Source: a virus. From it: a stretch of 21,658 nt of DNA. A model generated the notes under the pieces. That model saw nothing but the letters and a program-made list of their open reading frames with translations, searched no databases and was not told the origin of the DNA. This document shows, piece by piece, positions 4,546 through 18,828 of the stretch. The first letter of the stretch is position 1; each line of letters opens with the position of its first letter. Position numbers and translations under genes: made by a program. Location of the stretch: the IMG/VR virus record IMGVR_UViG_3300032220_001353, positions 1 to 21,658 of that record, one strand, 5' to 3'.

Positions 4546-6261
4546 TTAGATAGTATTTAATCCATTTACATAGATTTTACCATAGAATTCAGGACGTAAC
4601 ATTTTCTTAGCGTAACGAGTCAAGAGACCTTTACGTGGAGTAAATGTATCTGGATCGTACACTAATGGTGTCATAATTAATGGAATGTATGGAGCGAATA
4701 CAGCACCTGTTTCCAAGAACTGAGAACCTCTATAACCCATAAGGATTAAGTTTTCAGTCATGTAAGGGTTTTTGTAAACTTTGTAACGACCATTAACTGA
4801 ACCTACTTTTTGTACACCGAAAGCGTATTCCATTTGATCAGCTTCACCATTGTTTGTAGAAGCGAATCCTGGGATTGACTCAAGGATAGTAGCGATTGTA
4901 GGAGAAGTTACTAAGAAGTTAGCACCTCCACGTAAAGTCAACTGGTGGATTTTATTAGATACTTTTTGGATTTTAGTACCTAATGTTTGGAACCACTGAC
5001 CTTGTGTGTTGTAGAAACCTTGTGTTCCTGAAGCAGCACTGAAAGCACCGTTTGAATAAACTGTGTTGTTAATAGCTGACCAGTACTCAGTTGCAGCAGC
5101 AGCATCTTCAATCAACATATCTAAAATTTCCAAATCAATTTCCATTGAAATGTACTCAGACATGATGTTTGTTAATTCCGCTTCAGCATCGATGTTTTGG
5201 TAAGCAGCTAAATCTTGTGCAAATTCAGGAGTCCATACAGCTTTCAACTTTTTAGTCTTAGCAGTGATGGCTTGAGATTGCATTCTTACGTTAATCTCTG
5301 GGATAGCGATTTGAGTGTTTGAAGTAGCATTCGGTACTGAGAAAGAACCTGAAGCTTCGAAATCACCACGACCAGATCCACTGTAGTTATTACCACCTGA
5401 ATAAGTTGGAATACCATCTGCATTACCTGCTTTCTGGTAAGTAACTGTATAAGCACCATTTTCTAAGATTTGTGCTGTAGAAGCAGTTACATAGAAAGTA
5501 ATAGTATTAGCAGTGTAGTTGTAAGAAGTAAACTGGTTTAAGTTAGTAGCTGTAACAACGTTTGAACCTGAAGAGATAATAAATCCACGAACTGCATCTT
5601 GGTCAAATCCTGGAAGGTTTGTTGATGCTGCAGGGAAAACGATTTCCTTGATAGTACCAGCAGCAACTGAAGCTGAAAACTCAGAATCAAAATCAACATC
5701 TTGGAAAGAAGCAGATGTAACACCAGCGGATGCTGTAATTGCTACTGCAGAACTTGAGAAGTTGTTAGTTGCGTACGTAAAACGACCCTCAGGACCACCA
5801 TATAAACCACCTACTGCCTCGGGAGTAGAGAATGGGAATTGAGAAGCGGTATTACGAGTACCATAAAGTGATTGACCTTCAGTAAATGGAGACTTAGTGT
5901 TACCATATTGAAAATCTAAGAAGAACACTAGGCCAGAAGGCATGTTCATTGGTTGAACTGAAACGAATTCTTTTGCTACGATGGTACCGAATACTTTACG
6001 TACCAATGGAAGAGCAATACCAGCCCAGTTTTCACCTTGTCCGTTAGAAACGAATGAAGAGTTAGAAGAGATTTGGTTTGTTTCAGTTACTAATTGTTTA
6101 GCTTGGTTTTCTAACATGATTGACATGTTATTTTTCTCAAGCTCGCCTAAGCCTTCCAATAGTCCTGTTTTAGACCATTTTCCAGCTAATTTAGCAGCGT
6201 CGCTTTGAAGTGACTTCCAAGAGCCAGCTGCGCTTTCTAATAATTGTTGTACTTGTGACAT
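4546..6261 (-). CDS. 23: Major capsid protein (gp23-like)
   Basis: This 571-residue protein (T4 gp23 is 521) is the HK97-fold shell subunit of a T4-like prohead. The N-terminal 60 residues are helical and charged, like the delta piece that the prohead protease removes. A V-T-E sequence at 58-60 is a plausible cleavage site near the (I/L)-x-E consensus, and the mature chain would start at Thr61. NWAGIALPLVRKVFG (78-92) corresponds to the conserved start of the mature capsid core, and MPSGLVFFLDFQYG (107-120) matches the gp23 family. The C-terminal YAKKMLRPEFYGKIYVNGL is also family-typical. The start lacks a Shine-Dalgarno sequence and follows an A-rich leader. It is the second gene of the scaffold-capsid operon, followed by a strong terminator. 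Confidence 0.95.
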   Translation of the reverse strand: MSQVQQLLESAAGSWKSLQSDAAKLAGKWSKTGLLEGLGELEKNNMSIMLENQAKQLVTETNQISSNSSFVSNGQGENWAGIALPLVRKVFGTIVAKEFVSVQPMNMPSGLVFFLDFQYGNTKSPFTEGQSLYGTRNTASQFPFSTPEAVGGLYGGPEGRFTYATNNFSSSAVAITASAGVTSASFQDVDFDSEFSASVAAGTIKEIVFPAASTNLPGFDQDAVRGFIISSGSNVVTATNLNQFTSYNYTANTITFYVTASTAQILENGAYTVTYQKAGNADGIPTYSGGNNYSGSGRGDFEASGSFSVPNATSNTQIAIPEINVRMQSQAITAKTKKLKAVWTPEFAQDLAAYQNIDAEAELTNIMSEYISMEIDLEILDMLIEDAAAATEYWSAINNTVYSNGAFSAASGTQGFYNTQGQWFQTLGTKIQKVSNKIHQLTLRGGANFLVTSPTIATILESIPGFASTNNGEADQMEYAFGVQKVGSVNGRYKVYKNPYMTENLILMGYRGSQFLETGAVFAPYIPLIMTPLVYDPDTFTPRKGLLTRYAKKMLRPEFYGKIYVNGLNTI

Positions 6262-6294: not shown

Positions 6295-7437
6295 TTATTT
6301 TGTAATTCCTGCTAAATGTTGCCATCTAGCAAATTGATCATTTACCTCAAGAATTGGAGATTTTGTTGGAGCAATTCCTGCAGCTTTAGAAGCACCACCC
6401 ATCATAGATTCAGTTACTGAAGATTTTTTGGATTTAGGTTCATTTGATAAAGTTTCAAATACCAATTTTGCTTCTTTAGCAGTAGTTGCTTTGTCAAAAG
6501 CTTCCAATACTTTTACTTTTTGACTTTCGGTCAAGTTTTTAGATCTGAAGATTTTGTTAGTGTAAAGTAATTTAGCATTTAACAAATTAACTTCGTTTAA
6601 GTCAGTTTTAATAGTTTCGATAGTAGAATAAGCTTCGTCAAGTTTAGCTTCCATTTCTTTTAGCTTTTTCTTGTAATCTTCTTTACCTTCTTCTTCAGCA
6701 GTGTCTTTTTTGTCACCACGTTTAGCAGCAGGTACGTCACCTTTGTTACCACCGTACTTTTTTCTTTCAGCTAACTCAGCTACTAATTCGTCGATGTTAA
6801 TTTCTTCTTCTTCCGAAGCTTCCATTTCTTCACCTTCTCCTTCTTCACCTTCTTCACCTTCAATTTCGCCTTCTAGTTCCCCTGCGGATACCATATCGGC
6901 GATTACTGATTCGATAAATGATTTAAGATCATCTTCAGTCATGTTTTCAAGATCAATTTCCTCATCATCACCCATTTCTACTTCAGCTTCACCAGCTTCT
7001 GCTTCTTCCTCTGCTACATTACCTTTAGCAGTAGGACCTTTAGGGTCATTGATTAGGTCTTCTTCACCTTCCATCATTTCCTCTTTTTCTCCTTCTTCCA
7101 TTTCATCGAGTTCTCTAAGAAGTTCATCTAAGTCCATTTCTTCTAGGTCTGATGCTTCATCCATTTCTCCAGCTTCATCCATTGTTTCAGCTTCATCCAT
7201 TTCTTTTGCTTCGTCCATGTCGAAATTTTCTTCCATTTCCTTCTTGTCCTCCATTTCAGCTACTTTCTTGTCTTCAGCTTCATCCATATCATCCATTTCA
7301 GCTAACTTTGCAGCTAGTTTTTCACGAATCATTGGGTTGAAAACTTCTTCAAGAGCAGCTTTTGCATTTGCAATAGCAGTTTCTTTAACGGCTTTTGCAT
7401 CAGCGATTGCTTCTTTTAGCAAGTCTCTGTTGTTCAT
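6295..7437 (-). CDS. 22: Prohead core scaffolding protein (gp22-like)
   Basis: This very acidic 380-residue protein is the internal scaffold on which the prohead assembles and which the protease later degrades. I chose the ATG at 7437 because GAGGA lies 8 bases upstream; a TTG 15 bases earlier would use that same sequence as codons. The N-terminus (MNNRDLLKEAI) is a helical Ala/Lys/Glu region, the centre is dominated by Glu, Asp and Met with MDEA repeats, and the last 120 residues are a coiled coil plus LLYTNKIFRSKNLTESQKVK, a signature of gp22-like proteins in T4-type phages. Several I/L-x-E tripeptides provide protease sites. It lies directly before the capsid gene, as gene 22 does in T4. 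The acidic centre has little sequence specificity; the call rests on the C-terminus and position. Confidence 0.88.
   Translation of the reverse strand: MNNRDLLKEAIADAKAVKETAIANAKAALEEVFNPMIREKLAAKLAEMDDMDEAEDKKVAEMEDKKEMEENFDMDEAKEMDEAETMDEAGEMDEASDLEEMDLDELLRELDEMEEGEKEEMMEGEEDLINDPKGPTAKGNVAEEEAEAGEAEVEMGDDEEIDLENMTEDDLKSFIESVIADMVSAGELEGEIEGEEGEEGEGEEMEASEEEEINIDELVAELAERKKYGGNKGDVPAAKRGDKKDTAEEEGKEDYKKKLKEMEAKLDEAYSTIETIKTDLNEVNLLNAKLLYTNKIFRSKNLTESQKVKVLEAFDKATTAKEAKLVFETLSNEPKSKKSSVTESMMGGASKAAGIAPTKSPILEVNDQFARWQHLAGITK
7153..7218 (-). repeat. 18-bp tandem repeat encoding MDEA units in the scaffold gene
   Basis: Four Met-Asp-Glu-Ala units occur at a six-residue period inside the scaffold coding sequence, visible on the plus strand as repeated gcttcatccat/gcttcgtccat. 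A related MDEA lies about 20 residues earlier. The period and near-identical codons suggest expansion by slippage or unequal exchange in a low-complexity acidic region. Confidence 0.7.
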
Positions 7438-7517
7438 ACTGTTTGTCCTCAAATTTGTTTGTTGGAAATACGCTTAATGTTGACGATTGTCGAAGCGTAA
7501 TAAAATTTATTAATTTA

Positions 7518-7661: not shown

Positions 7662-8267
7662 TTAAAAAATAGGACAAGTCCCATTAGCGCAAAGTATCTC
7701 AGTTAATAGAGAATTTACTTTTGCAAATTTATTTTCAGGAAGATTTTCTTTACCTTCTCTAACTAAATGCATATATGAACCTGGGTTAGAAGGAGTAGAT
7801 ACAAAATCCCAACATAATAGTTCAAAGTCATCTTGTACTTCTAAAGTTTCACCTATTTGTTTTAATGAACCCATACCACGAGATGATACACCTACAGTAA
7901 CATTATTATCTATAAGCGCCTTTAAAATATTACCAGACATAGTTGGCAATATCTCTAATTTACCCATTACTTTATCACCATTCCACCAAATTTCACGTAT
8001 GATATGTGATACATTTTTTAGATTGATAATAGTGGAATCAGGATGATCTAATTCTCCTGTGGCTCTATTTTCTTTAACCATTTGGGAATATTTGTCAATT
8101 TCTCTTTCCCAAAGTTCTTTTGGATAATATCTTCCGTTCCCGTTTTTTACTTCGGCTGTAGCAAGTATTCCTTCAACTAAAGGATTACCTGAAGGGGCTT
8201 TAAGACCTTCATTTAAACTTTTAGGTGTTACTGAAAACGGGATCGTTTCAATTAATACTTGTTTCAT
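7662..8267 (-). CDS. 21: Prohead protease (gp21-like, serine protease)
   Basis: This 201-residue protein is the head maturation protease of T4-like phages, which cleaves scaffold, internal proteins and major capsid protein after I/L-x-E sites. VEGILATAEVKNGNGRYYP (31-49) and GELDHPDS (71-78) with His75 match the family. VGVSSRGMGS (125-134) carries the catalytic Ser, most likely Ser128 or Ser129. LLCWDFVSTPSNPGS (150-164) is the conserved segment near the third catalytic position. The length is close to T4 gp21 (212). The start ATG follows the preceding stop with one base between them. It is the last gene of the terminase-portal operon and lies before scaffold and capsid, as in T4. Confidence 0.94.
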   Translation of the reverse strand: MKQVLIETIPFSVTPKSLNEGLKAPSGNPLVEGILATAEVKNGNGRYYPKELWEREIDKYSQMVKENRATGELDHPDSTIINLKNVSHIIREIWWNGDKVMGKLEILPTMSGNILKALIDNNVTVGVSSRGMGSLKQIGETLEVQDDFELLCWDFVSTPSNPGSYMHLVREGKENLPENKFAKVNSLLTEILCANGTCPIF

Positions 8268-8268
8268 A

Positions 8269-8883
8269 TTATTTCTTTTTATCTAAATCGCCGTAGCCAC
8301 TTGATTTATATTTTCCTTTTGGAGCTTTAGGTTCACCTAATCCAGGTGCTTCAACTTGATATCCAATTCCTTTAATACCAGCAAAAGCATTTTTGTGGTA
8401 ATAGTTAATATCTTTAGCCATGTTTTTAGCAACAATAGCTTTTAATTCATCAACTGTTTTTTTAGAATTTTTAGGATCACCCATTTCAGTTAAATACCCT
8501 AATAAAAATGATTGACCATAAAGATTATCAATATTTTTAGGATCTCTATTATCAAATTGATGATCTAAAGCTGCTTGAACATCTTTATCGATTTTATCAA
8601 ACGTGTTTTGATCACCATATTCTTTTTTGTCTTTAACACCTACTGCTTCTTCAATTTTTTCATTAAAAATTTTAAACCAGTCAGGTTGAGCAGGTGATTG
8701 TGTAACAACACCACCAATTGCTTCACTTAAAAGACTTTTACTTTTTAAGATAGAAACAGCAGAATTAAAATCATTACCATGAGCTATATACTCAGGAAAC
8801 ATATTTCTTGCTACTTTAAGAAAATGGTCTTTATTACCTTTTCCTTCCTTAATAAGTTGGTATTCTTGTTGTAGAGTTTTCAT
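8269..8883 (-). CDS. Conserved phage protein, candidate prohead core/internal protein
   Basis: I do not recognise a named family for this 204-residue, Lys/Asp/Asn-rich soluble protein. It begins MKTLQQEYQLIKEGKGNKDH, and I-K-E followed by Gly at about residues 11-14 fits the T4 prohead-protease consensus (I/L-x-E then a small residue). T4 internal proteins carry a similar short capsid-targeting peptide of the MKTYQEFIAEA type. The C-terminal third (YYHKNAFAGIKGIGYQ, then a Lys/Gly/Pro-rich tail) is unlike any enzyme I know. The gene lies directly before the protease, with one base between stop and next start, in the position of T4 core genes 67/68. A core or packaged internal head protein is a reasonable inference. 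Confidence 0.65.
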   Translation of the reverse strand: MKTLQQEYQLIKEGKGNKDHFLKVARNMFPEYIAHGNDFNSAVSILKSKSLLSEAIGGVVTQSPAQPDWFKIFNEKIEEAVGVKDKKEYGDQNTFDKIDKDVQAALDHQFDNRDPKNIDNLYGQSFLLGYLTEMGDPKNSKKTVDELKAIVAKNMAKDINYYHKNAFAGIKGIGYQVEAPGLGEPKAPKGKYKSSGYGDLDKKK

Positions 8884-8885
8884 TT

Positions 8886-8899
8886 ATTATAAATATTAT
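8886..8899 (-). promoter_or_regulatory. Recurrent TATAATATTTATAA-like motif
   Basis: The minus strand reads CATAATATTTATAAT, overlapping the stop of the 8896-9177 gene and ending 2-3 bases before the ATG at 8883. The closeness to the ATG would imply a leaderless message or a start for a later gene, so promoter function at this copy is doubtful. Confidence 0.3.
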
Positions 8900-9177
8900 G
8901 TGTATAAAATTACGGGGGCACTACCTGCAGCTAAACTACAAGAAGTTATACCTAATGGAATTGTTTTTCCTGCAGGGATTGTGAAGGAAACACCTGTTGC
9001 TTCCACAACAGAACCATTAGTTGCTATTGAGTTACCATATTTAAAGGCTGTAATGGTAGATCCTGTTGGGGATGTGAATGAGCCTGTTCCTAAAGAAGTT
9101 ATACCTGCAAAAGAGCCTGTAGCTGAGTTTCCTGCTGTTAAAATTACACCACCAAAATTTACGGGGATATTTGCCAT
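8896..9177 (-). CDS. Small Gly/Ser/Thr-rich putative structural protein
   Basis: This 93-residue protein is rich in Gly, Ser, Thr, Ala and Ile, with almost no charged residues. It looks like a small beta-structured virion component, perhaps a head decoration protein. Short repeats are visible (TGSFAGITSLGTGSF, about residues 20-34). The N-terminus MANIP also occurs in the neck protein at 374-1606, which may be chance. It lies 4 bases after the stop of the preceding gene, between the portal and the protease. No named family is recognised; an outward-facing decoration role is inference only. Confidence 0.6.
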   Translation of the reverse strand: MANIPVNFGGVILTAGNSATGSFAGITSLGTGSFTSPTGSTITAFKYGNSIATNGSVVEATGVSFTIPAGKTIPLGITSCSLAAGSAPVILYT

Positions 9178-9181
9178 GTTT

Positions 9182-10039
9182 TTATTTTTTAAATAATTCT
9201 ATTAAATCGTTTACATAATCGTTTGCTAAATCAGTTCCATACATTACAGCAAATGAATCTGGGTTTTCTCTATAGTAATCCATAGTTTCATGTTTTGCTT
9301 GTTGTAAAAATGGTATTAACTCATTTAACTTTCTTTCTAATTCATCAAATCCTAATAAACGGGATGCGATAAATTTCTTTTTATCTGGGTCTGTTATGTT
9401 TAATCCTGCTAAATAATCTTCTACATCAGTATTTGCTTCCCATAATGGTTTAACAATAATACCTTTTGCTGCTTTATTTAGTTTTTTTTTGTCTACTAAT
9501 TTGTATTTAAAATCTTTAACATAAATATTATCTTTTACACCTTCAGGACCTGCTGAAGGGCCAGGACCAAATGTAGCACCAGGACCTTCTTTTACTTTTT
9601 TAAATCCTGCTTGAGTATAAGCACCATATGTAGATTTTCTAGGTGAGGGACCATTATGGTTTTCACCTTCACCTCCTGATACAAATCCTGAATTGGAAGA
9701 TATTGTATTATCTTCAAATAACATTTTTATTTTAGCGTACTCTTCAGGGTAATTTTTTCTTACATGAGTACGTAATTCATTAAATGTTTTAGTTAATTCT
9801 TGTTGAAGTTTTAACATTGTAGAATCTGAACGGACATCTTTAGTTTTAATTAAACTGTCCATAAATTCTTTTGTTGTTTTTAAATTTTTAAATACTGAGG
9901 TAAAATCGGGAGTTTGTTCGATATCCCAAGTAATTCTACCAGTTTCAGGATCAATATCAGTAACTGTAGATTTTGTACCTCTATTGTACTCTACATCACC
10001 AACTTCTAATTCTTTTAATTTGTATTTAAAATTACCCAT
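9182..10039 (-). CDS. Candidate prohead core protein with a capsid-like N-terminal-arm motif
   Basis: This 285-residue protein of unknown family is rich in Lys, Asp and Glu. Residues 107-109 are L-F-E, a fit to the prohead-protease consensus, and the following residues (ISSNSGFVSGGEGENHNG, 113-130) closely match the major capsid protein directly after its own presumed cleavage site. A Gly/Pro-rich linker follows (150-168), then a helical C-terminal domain. FKYKL occurs at residues 4-8 and again at 177-181, which might mark two related halves. The gene overlaps the upstream one by 8 bases and lies between portal and protease, where T4 has core genes 67 and 68. I infer a processed core or capsid-bound internal protein. 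Confidence 0.62.
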   Translation of the reverse strand: MGNFKYKLKELEVGDVEYNRGTKSTVTDIDPETGRITWDIEQTPDFTSVFKNLKTTKEFMDSLIKTKDVRSDSTMLKLQQELTKTFNELRTHVRKNYPEEYAKIKMLFEDNTISSNSGFVSGGEGENHNGPSPRKSTYGAYTQAGFKKVKEGPGATFGPGPSAGPEGVKDNIYVKDFKYKLVDKKKLNKAAKGIIVKPLWEANTDVEDYLAGLNITDPDKKKFIASRLLGFDELERKLNELIPFLQQAKHETMDYYRENPDSFAVMYGTDLANDYVNDLIELFKK

Positions 10040-10923: not shown

Positions 10924-12825
10924 TTATTCTCTTATTTGACTTTCATCTAATAGTGATTCTTTCGGTTTATCTTCATTATTTGAAATCTTTTTAACCATAC
11001 TTTCAATTAATGATTTGTTTTTAAGATAAACTTGTTTTGCTTCTAATGCTAATGGAGAATTTCCTTTAAATTGAGGACGTACTGAATCAGATTCATTATC
11101 ATCGTTTTTCATTCCTTTTGCTCCTAATCTGTCTTTACCTAAGAAATCATCTTGAGTATTACGATCTGTTACTTTTTCTTCAGGACGACCTAATTCTAAA
11201 TCATCTCCATAACCTACTGGAAGGTTTTCTGGTTCTGAGTACATTCTGCCTTTGCCGTATAATGAAGCTAAATCATGTGGTGTACCATATGAACGACCTG
11301 TCATTTTAGGATCATTACCTTCTTCTTCTAATTGTTTAAATCTAAATGAACGTTTTTGATCTTCAGCTAATAAATCTCTGTATTCATCATATTCATCTTG
11401 GCTGAAATTAAATATATGATCATAAATCCAATCTGTTGGTAATAATTTAGTATCCATGATATTTTTAGCTAATTCAACCTTTTGGGTTAATAAAGCAATT
11501 TTTTCTTGATCATAGATAATTGATGGACCTGTTAAATCTAATTCAAAATTAGTTAATTCATCACCAGTGTAACCTTGCGAATATAAATGAACTAATGCGA
11601 TCTTATATAATTCTGATAAGGTAATGCGTTGTATACGGTCAATTGTGCGAGCAAAACGTATATCTTCAGCAGCTAATGTTGCTTTACCACTTAAGTCCTT
11701 ATCATAACCCATAAATGCTTTTGGAACTTTAAGGGCTGCAAATAATTTATCACGTAAATAGGTAACATCTTGAATACCATCATATTGTAAACCAGGTGTA
11801 GTTTCAATTTTAGTTGATGTATCATTTCCACGAATTGGAATATAAAAATCTTCAAGTAAGTTTTGTTGATTGTATTTTAGGTTATATTCACCTGTTTGGC
11901 TATCCATTAATGGAGTACGTTTCATTGTAGAAATTGTTTTCTGCATGAAATTTTCTACTTCATTTGGTGGGATAGAACCTACGTTAATATAAAATATACG
12001 TCTATCTGGGCTACGAGAAATTCTGTGAATTAACATAGCATCTTCCATCAAAACATATTGTTTAAAAATACGACGAGCTGGTTCCAAATATGAACGACCA
12101 TAAGGAAGATAATTAACATCTGTTAATAATCTAAAGTGAGCCATTTCATAATTATCAAAGAAAATACCTTGTTCATTATCATTAAATGTTCCTAAATTAG
12201 GAGCACCATAATAACCTGAACCACCTGCATAAATACCTTCAGGTGAATATCTAAATCTTATAGCATTTGGATGTTCTTTATCGTAATTTTCTTGTCTTTC
12301 AATATGATATGCAGTATAAGGAATAACATTATACACACCATATTTTTCAGCAATCTCCATTTTAAGGAAAAAATCACCATATTTACACATTTGGCGAATC
12401 CAAGACCAAAGATTGAATTCAATATTTAATACATCATAAAATAAGTTATATAAAATTTGTTGAATATCTTCGTTATTACTTTTAATTCGAAGTACTTCAC
12501 CTAAATCATTCTTTAATGTACTTTCATCAGCAACAATATCAAGTGCAGAAGCTACAATCGCATCATAATCCATATTATCATAGTCTGAGTAGACCATGGT
12601 TCTAAGGTACTGCCAATTTATGTTAATCTGCGCACCTAATAGTGATGTAGAGGATGGAGAATATAATCGATTATATCTATCCATTAATGAATTTGTAGCA
12701 ATATCTCCTGATTGTTGGATAGAGTCTACATCCATTACTTTTAATTCATTTCCGCCTACATTTCTTATAATAACATCTGTTGAAAACAATCGTTGTAATC
12801 GGGTGAATAAACTAGTATCTGCCAT
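10924..12825 (-). CDS. 20: Portal vertex protein (gp20-like)
   Basis: This 633-residue protein forms the dodecameric portal ring at one capsid vertex, through which DNA is packaged and ejected. ASALDIVADES, the WSWIRQMCKYGDFFLKMEI segment and MLIHRISRSPDRRIFYINVG are hallmarks of gp20-like portals, as are GYDKDLSGKATLAAEDIRFA and the following helical crown region. It is about 110 residues longer than T4 gp20 (524). The extra length is a polar, disordered-looking C-terminal tail beginning near residue 490. The start ATG has an A-rich leader without a Shine-Dalgarno sequence. It follows the terminase gene directly, with no tail sheath or tube genes between them as in T4. Confidence 0.95.
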   Translation of the reverse strand: MADTSLFTRLQRLFSTDVIIRNVGGNELKVMDVDSIQQSGDIATNSLMDRYNRLYSPSSTSLLGAQININWQYLRTMVYSDYDNMDYDAIVASALDIVADESTLKNDLGEVLRIKSNNEDIQQILYNLFYDVLNIEFNLWSWIRQMCKYGDFFLKMEIAEKYGVYNVIPYTAYHIERQENYDKEHPNAIRFRYSPEGIYAGGSGYYGAPNLGTFNDNEQGIFFDNYEMAHFRLLTDVNYLPYGRSYLEPARRIFKQYVLMEDAMLIHRISRSPDRRIFYINVGSIPPNEVENFMQKTISTMKRTPLMDSQTGEYNLKYNQQNLLEDFYIPIRGNDTSTKIETTPGLQYDGIQDVTYLRDKLFAALKVPKAFMGYDKDLSGKATLAAEDIRFARTIDRIQRITLSELYKIALVHLYSQGYTGDELTNFELDLTGPSIIYDQEKIALLTQKVELAKNIMDTKLLPTDWIYDHIFNFSQDEYDEYRDLLAEDQKRSFRFKQLEEEGNDPKMTGRSYGTPHDLASLYGKGRMYSEPENLPVGYGDDLELGRPEEKVTDRNTQDDFLGKDRLGAKGMKNDDNESDSVRPQFKGNSPLALEAKQVYLKNKSLIESMVKKISNNEDKPKESLLDESQIRE

Positions 12826-18210: not shown

Positions 18211-18828
18211 TTATGATACTAGTTTCGAAATAAAATCTTTAATTTCACCACCTTTAACAGCACTTAAAGCTGTTTCTAATGTAGCTAAAGATAAGTTTTT
18301 AGATTGGATTGCTTTAATAGCAGTTGCCCCGGAGGCAATAAGAAATGTTGCTACAATTACGTGGAAGATTCCACTTGCTACTTTTTTCGCTTTTACTTCA
18401 TCTTTAATGAATTTTTTAACAATAGCTTCAATCGGAGCCATATATAAATGATGTAATTCATCTGCAATGTGTCCTAATTTAGCCATCCATTGGTTATAAG
18501 CTGCTTCATCATTAGGTTTTTTACCTAATACTTTGTTAACCATGTTGCCGGCTGCTTTACCTAATTTAGCCACTAACCCCATTATTGCGGGAAGTGCAAT
18601 TGCAATACTAGCAATAGTTAAAAGACCTTCATTTGTTGGTTGTTCTTTTTCTGATGCTTTTGTTAATTCAGTATCTAAACCTTTTATAATAGCAGACATT
18701 TCGTCTTTTACATCATCAACTACTGATTGTTCTTTATCATCTAGATTAATATCAACTTCTTGTAGATTTTTTTCTAACTGTCCTTCAGCTAAAAATTTTC
18801 TTAAATCAAATGCATCTGCTTGTTTCAC
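18211..18828 (-). CDS. Putative internal virion/membrane-segment protein with a protease-type N-terminus
   Basis: This 205-residue protein begins MKQADAFDLRKFLAEGQLEK. L-A-E followed by Gly (about residues 13-16) fits the prohead-protease consensus and the capsid-targeting peptide layout of T4 internal proteins. Two hydrophobic helices (about 68-88 and 154-176) and a Lys-rich middle suggest insertion into a membrane or DNA-ejection function. The start is a GTG that overlaps the preceding stop (GTGA); no in-frame ATG occurs for 43 codons, and the N-terminal motif would be lost with a later start. It is the last gene before a strong terminator. I infer an internal head protein ejected with DNA; a membrane protein unrelated to the head is the alternative. 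Confidence 0.6.
   Translation of the reverse strand: MKQADAFDLRKFLAEGQLEKNLQEVDINLDDKEQSVVDDVKDEMSAIIKGLDTELTKASEKEQPTNEGLLTIASIAIALPAIMGLVAKLGKAAGNMVNKVLGKKPNDEAAYNQWMAKLGHIADELHHLYMAPIEAIVKKFIKDEVKAKKVASGIFHVIVATFLIASGATAIKAIQSKNLSLATLETALSAVKGGEIKDFISKLVS

Follow-up and report, generated by a model that had tools for sequence, protein, structure and literature searches.

Co-varying segments in the capsid protein and a core-position protein of T4-like phages suggest mimicry of the capsid clamp by an internal head protein

Introduction

Why would two head proteins of a T4-like phage share 22 residues that, in both, directly follow a putative prohead-protease site? The question is raised by the window, by which we mean the whole 21,658-nucleotide stretch of viral DNA analyzed here, where one copy lies in the major capsid protein and the other in a core-position protein (Table 1). 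The phages concerned are an uncultured T4-like group, large and common in aquatic metagenomes, with few cultured members. If the second copy imitates the first, it would offer a means of attaching internal proteins to the shell or of releasing them during maturation, and a protein family without a Pfam or PHROG assignment would gain a concrete, testable role. In the open-access literature that we searched, we found no description of a core or internal protein of T4 type whose sequence repeats the start of the mature capsid chain.

Results

The window contains a T4-type head module with genes for the terminase, portal, core-position protein, 93-aa protein, 204-aa protein, protease, gp22-position scaffold, and capsid protein. 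Families assigned by Pfam and PHROG place the core gene between the portal gene on one side and the prohead protease gene on the other, ∼3 kb from the capsid gene, and put the capsid protein in the gp23 sequence family (PF07068 and phrog_138; E = 4.9e-75 and 7.7e-69). The label "core-position protein", given by the first-pass annotation, is fair as a statement of gene position, short of demonstrated identity with T4 gp67/gp68. Of the neighboring genes, that for the 93-aa protein was present in only 30 of the 51 relatives examined. Targeting-like starts were also observed in the proteins encoded at 18211-18828 and 8269-8883 (MKQADAFDLRKFLAE and MKTLQQEYQLIKE, respectively), and the LLSE of the 204-aa protein retains [LIVM]xE in 100% of 122 rows.

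Table 1. Features of the window, with positions in the window and the evidence for each
Feature	Position	Strand	Evidence or remark
Portal protein, gp20 type	10924..12825	-	PF07230, E 1e-68
Core-position protein P0003, 285 aa	9182..10039	-	ORF between portal and protease genes
N-terminal peptide MGNFKYKLKE, 10 residues, ending L-x-E	10010..10039	-	Site kept in 88% of 139 rows
Folded N-domain, residues 16-105	9725..9994	-	AlphaFold2; exchanged among lineages, missing in some
L-F-E, putative prohead-protease site preceding core segment	9713..9721	-	[LIVM]xE in 98% of 141 rows
Predicted disordered region with segment, residues 106-201	9437..9724	-	AlphaFold2 pLDDT <50 nearly throughout
Shared segment in core protein, first residue the P1 Glu	9650..9715	-	Residues 109-130, reads EDNTISSNSGFVSGGEGENHNG
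V-K-E, further protease-like site ahead of GPGAT	9587..9595	-	85% of 130 rows
L-W-E, further protease-like site ahead of C-domain	9437..9445	-	91% of 117 rows
C-terminal helical domain, residues 206-284	9188..9424	-	AlphaFold2
93-aa protein	8896-9177		
204-aa protein	8269-8883		
Prohead protease, gp21 type	7662..8267	-	PF03420, E 1.6e-29; phrog_207
Acidic scaffold-like protein, gp22 position	6295..7452	-	Position; LxE sites present, shared segment absent
Major capsid protein P0004, gp23 type	4546..6261	-	PF07068, phrog_138
Capsid propeptide, residues 1-60	6082..6261	-	Ends at VTE; removal inferred from T4 gp23
Shared segment in capsid protein, presumed N-fist of mature chain	6019..6084	-	Residues 60-81, reads ETNQISSNSSFVSNGQGENWAG

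The first-pass annotation had counted about 15 identities between the two 22-residue segments. We confirmed 15 of 22 without gaps, the best ungapped 22-mer match of the pair, whereas the highest count among 200 core-protein shuffles was 11. BLASTP of the core protein against the capsid protein gave E = 3e-6, and when the capsid segment was compared with seven proteins of the window, the core protein scored z = 13.8 and every other protein 0.8 or less. In a profile comparison, the similarity of the two proteins was limited to 29 columns that start ∼7 residues upstream of the P1 Glu. A sequence search had hinted that the whole capsid propeptide might be homologous to the core N-domain; the profile comparison showed the two to be otherwise unrelated, and we rejected this idea. 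The segments are of low complexity (Gly/Ser/Thr/Asn) and agree residue by residue, including the Phe, GEN, and GxGxQ, with class-specific differences in the capsid and core copies alike. When the core region was shuffled with its composition preserved, scores averaged 20 and peaked at 39, versus an observed mean of 55.

AlphaFold2 modeled the core protein (mean pLDDT 61) with an N-domain up to residue 105, a low-confidence stretch (residues 106-201) whose Gly/Ser/Asn-rich segment has no predicted strand, and a helical C-domain. The model of the capsid protein was too poor for use (mean pLDDT 45). A tblastn search with the core protein found no match among 50,697 phage records, and a fold search with its model returned no PDB match at E 0.001 and one uncharacterized 117-aa viral protein (E = 4.7e-4). 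The N-domain comes in two dissimilar types that are swapped between phages, and some phages lack it. Three loci (L058, L060, and L061) without an N-domain have MGNFKYKIKPVSE directly ahead of the segment, and in the clade around L274, which also lacks it, the peptide there is 14 residues long and resembles MDKLKEIIRKKLKE; where such 13-14-residue peptides replace the domain, the cut motif is still present. The pattern of an N-terminal peptide ending in L/I-x-E occurs as MGNFKYKLKE and as the MDKLKEIIRKKLKE type, and certain members of the family have no KYK-type start. The FKYKL element of the window protein (10010-10039) is repeated past the linker as DFKYKLVD (9497-9511), and in many relatives both lie near LxE sites.

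We then turned to 330 loci, namely the window, four regions from annotated phages, and the yield of five viral-contig scans, certain of these loci being overlapping stretches of one contig. A core homolog was found in 326 of the 330, and core and capsid genes together in 179. The protease-type Glu that the first-pass annotation had placed at the segment start of both proteins was borne out, with motif and segment conserved in both families: all 85 aligned capsids have [LIVM]xE ahead of the segment (VTE-type), as do 98% of the 141 cores in the alignment. The motif stands in a fixed register right before the segment, and the sequence upstream is variable in length. As a pattern, [LIVM]xE is permissive and present at many helical sites. 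At the chosen site of 116 distinct core-capsid pairs, which is [LIVM]xE by definition, P3 was most often L (73 pairs), followed by V (23), I (18), and M (2).

Conservation of the segment itself, also anticipated for homologs of both proteins, held in most pairs and failed in 24 of the 116 distinct cores, which have no central FxxGxG. Sixteen of the 24 partner capsids retain the motif (GTG in 10, GVG in 5, GIG in 1), and eight have none. Because some cores have lost FxxGxG while the capsid often retains it, the segment is not indispensable; many cores without the segment still keep the cut site. The closest cultured capsid, at 54% identity, is that of Flavobacterium phage immuto, which encodes a syntenic 73-aa protein, immuto35A_198 (QQO92116.1; MKKSQIVKAVQEVLEE/MSTTGAVGGY...), with the segment minus its FxxGxG part. 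A core homolog is also encoded on a contig assigned by binning to a Flavobacteriaceae MAG (L335), and together with the relationship to immuto this hints at Bacteroidota hosts. The 268,739-base contig of L105 (also L211/L212) bears two distinct T4-like head modules, each of which brings a capsid gene, and is either a chimera or a phage having two.

Four classes of segment were distinguished: GG-x-GEN, to which the window belongs, GT-x-GEN, GTG, and GQG. Capsid and core shared a class in 30 (GG), 16 (GT), 18 (GTG), and 13 (GQG) of the 116 distinct pairs. The exceptions were the 24 motif-less cores, 13 pairs with different middle letters in GxG, and two motif-less capsids with a GQG core; no pair combined a GEN-type with a GxG-type copy. 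In three class GG contigs of 150-269 kb (E 10), and likewise in one 166-kb contig of class GQG, the segment was matched only by the capsid and core genes, and in contigs with a motif-less core only by the capsid gene, all of these being records that may be incomplete. The alignment score within a phage was 54.0, versus 35.4 ± 1.35 for permuted cross-phage pairs (0 of 20,000 permutations), and after thinning to 12 diverged capsids, which does not entirely remove relatedness, it was 52.7 versus 38.7 ± 4.0 (2 of 20,000). Within a class, a protein's own partner matched no better than a neighbor's (p = 0.22, 0.17, and 0.69).

When the first set was restricted to pairs having both motifs, the capsid-body tree explained each of the two states with the minimum of two changes. 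A core "backbone" tree gave five co-switches out of five; separate trees showed that the core N-domain is often exchanged (11 changes needed on the N-domain tree versus 3 on the C-domain, portal, and 204-aa trees), and the count is therefore inflated. In view of this exchange and of the few independent pairs in the wider set, we dropped the five co-switches as strong independent evidence. Tree-independent pairs in the wider set changed in the same direction (GG/GT, 1 of 1; GEN/GxG, 1-2), too few for a sign test, GTG and other GxG types agreed only in part, and loss of the segment in one protein had no reliable companion loss in the other. The tree-independent co-changes number only about 2-4, and the co-variation is deep. 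Overall, the alignments support co-variation of the core segment with that of the capsid at the class level.

Codon use bears on how the likeness is kept. The first-pass annotation had argued from differing codons that the segment is not a recent copy, and our counts agree: in the window, the two genes use the same codon at 5 of 14 identical residues. Across the 30 GG-class pairs, codon identity was 0.489, no more than the 0.53 predicted from codon usage, and for the three classes tested the values at identical residues were 0.489, 0.541, and 0.483 versus 0.53, 0.537, and 0.496 expected, with no sign of recent copying or conversion at the DNA level. Since codon identity equals the usage expectation, the likeness is maintained at the protein level.

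Discussion

The N-fist of T4 comprises residues 66-91 of gp23*, directly past the gp23 cut (PMC7136217). It clamps neighboring capsomers after expansion, contacts four subunits, and helps form the Soc sites. Disordered in the unexpanded prohead, where gp23* lacks order in its N-terminal regions (PMC9958956), it gains order on expansion but stays disordered in the five portal-facing subunits (PMC7136217; PMC9958956). The T4 cut reads FLTE/AEIGG, and the capsid segment here is located likewise relative to its presumed cut. For this reason we favor, at roughly even chances and by analogy with T4, a core protein that is an internal head protein and whose mature end would mimic the capsid N-fist and bind its site or a vacant equivalent. 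The core protein would enter the prohead by its short, putative N-terminal targeting peptide, and the gp21-type protease would cut it after Glu109, leaving a mature protein whose first residues would copy those that open the mature capsid protein. By position this copy corresponds to the T4 gp23* N-fist; it would bind the capsid N-fist site or an equivalent vacant one, anchoring the internal protein to the shell or competing for the site during maturation. Cleavage, internal location, and a shared binding site of the core protein are all steps that we infer. We are more doubtful of a protease-timed version, in which the mature end of the core protein would be a decoy that fills sockets the capsid protein cannot, for example by the pentons or the portal, so that internal cargo would be clamped to the shell or expansion timed.

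Mimicry of the N-fist is consistent with the class matching and with the within-phage score excess, thinned set included, but the co-variation is based on few tree-independent events and own pairs within a class are no better than neighbors' (p 0.17-0.69). The likeness is at the protein level and, in the 150-269 kb contigs, confined to capsid and core; against this, 24 distinct pairs have a motif-less core, 16 of them with a motif-bearing capsid, and 13 differ in the middle letter of GxG. The cut motif is in register and persists where T4-like short peptides replace the N-domain, and the segment falls within a region predicted to be disordered, the residues past the T4 cut being the N-fist; yet [LIVM]xE is permissive, and T4 gp67, gp68, and gp22 have no N-fist copy. 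Sequences that are similar and not complementary, matched by class, would also fit a tether in which the internal capsid and core segments bind each other in the prohead, like-to-like binding keeping the match and cleavage freeing the core, as would the disorder of the gp23* N-terminal regions in the unexpanded T4 prohead (PMC9958956). We consider such a tether improbable: the Gly/Ser/Asn-rich segments have no predicted strand, within-class matching is not above random, and the core targeting known in T4 is by propeptides (PMC9026906).

Somewhat less probable still is extended recognition, in which the residues past the cut are read by the gp21-type protease, or by a docking site on it, and both substrates evolve with the protease. 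Both copies do stand right after the P1 Glu, with similarity reaching ∼7 residues upstream, but the gp22-position protein, the 204-aa protein, and other head proteins with a conserved [LIVM]xE show no segment, many segment-less cores retain the site, and T4 gp21 requires only the short L/I-x-E (PMC9026906). The low-complexity composition, the predicted disorder, and the tolerance of segment loss in some phages would suit a disordered spacer past the cut, conserved for composition only and arising by ancient duplication or by convergence of flexible linkers; we think this quite unlikely, given a residue-by-residue match that is class-specific in both proteins and lies above all composition-preserving shuffles. 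Gene conversion that homogenizes the segment between the core and capsid genes would have the short distance and the class matching in its favor, but codon identity at the usage expectation in three classes disfavors recent events and within-class excess is absent, and we regard conversion as very improbable.

Comparison with T4

Sequence comparison found no copy of the T4 N-fist in gp67, gp68, or gp22, and N-fist mimicry would therefore be a trait of this phage group and not of T4. The T4 N-fist did match gp21, but we set this match aside: it was borderline among seven comparisons, and it is internal to gp21 and does not follow a cut site. T4 gp67/gp68 have the same genomic position as the core protein here, past gene 20 and ahead of gene 21, and, like them, it is a presumed core protein with several LxE sites; Pfam, PHROG, and tblastn detected no sequence homology between them.

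Internal proteins of T4 have short capsid-targeting propeptides that are cut after L/I-x-E, and this short motif suffices for gp21 (PMC9026906). Like IPI, IPII, IPIII, and Alt, the core protein begins with a short peptide ending in L/I-x-E (9-14 residues in many members), is located in the head module, and is expected to mature in a protease-dependent manner. It showed no sequence match to them, its gene lies between the portal and protease genes, and, unlike them, it would mature to an N-fist-like start. The parallel between the T4 propeptides and the short peptide plus segment is one of layout, with no claim of homology. As with the gp23* N-fist, the capsid segment here directly follows a presumed protease cut; it differs from the T4 N-fist in sequence, and here a second protein has a matching copy.
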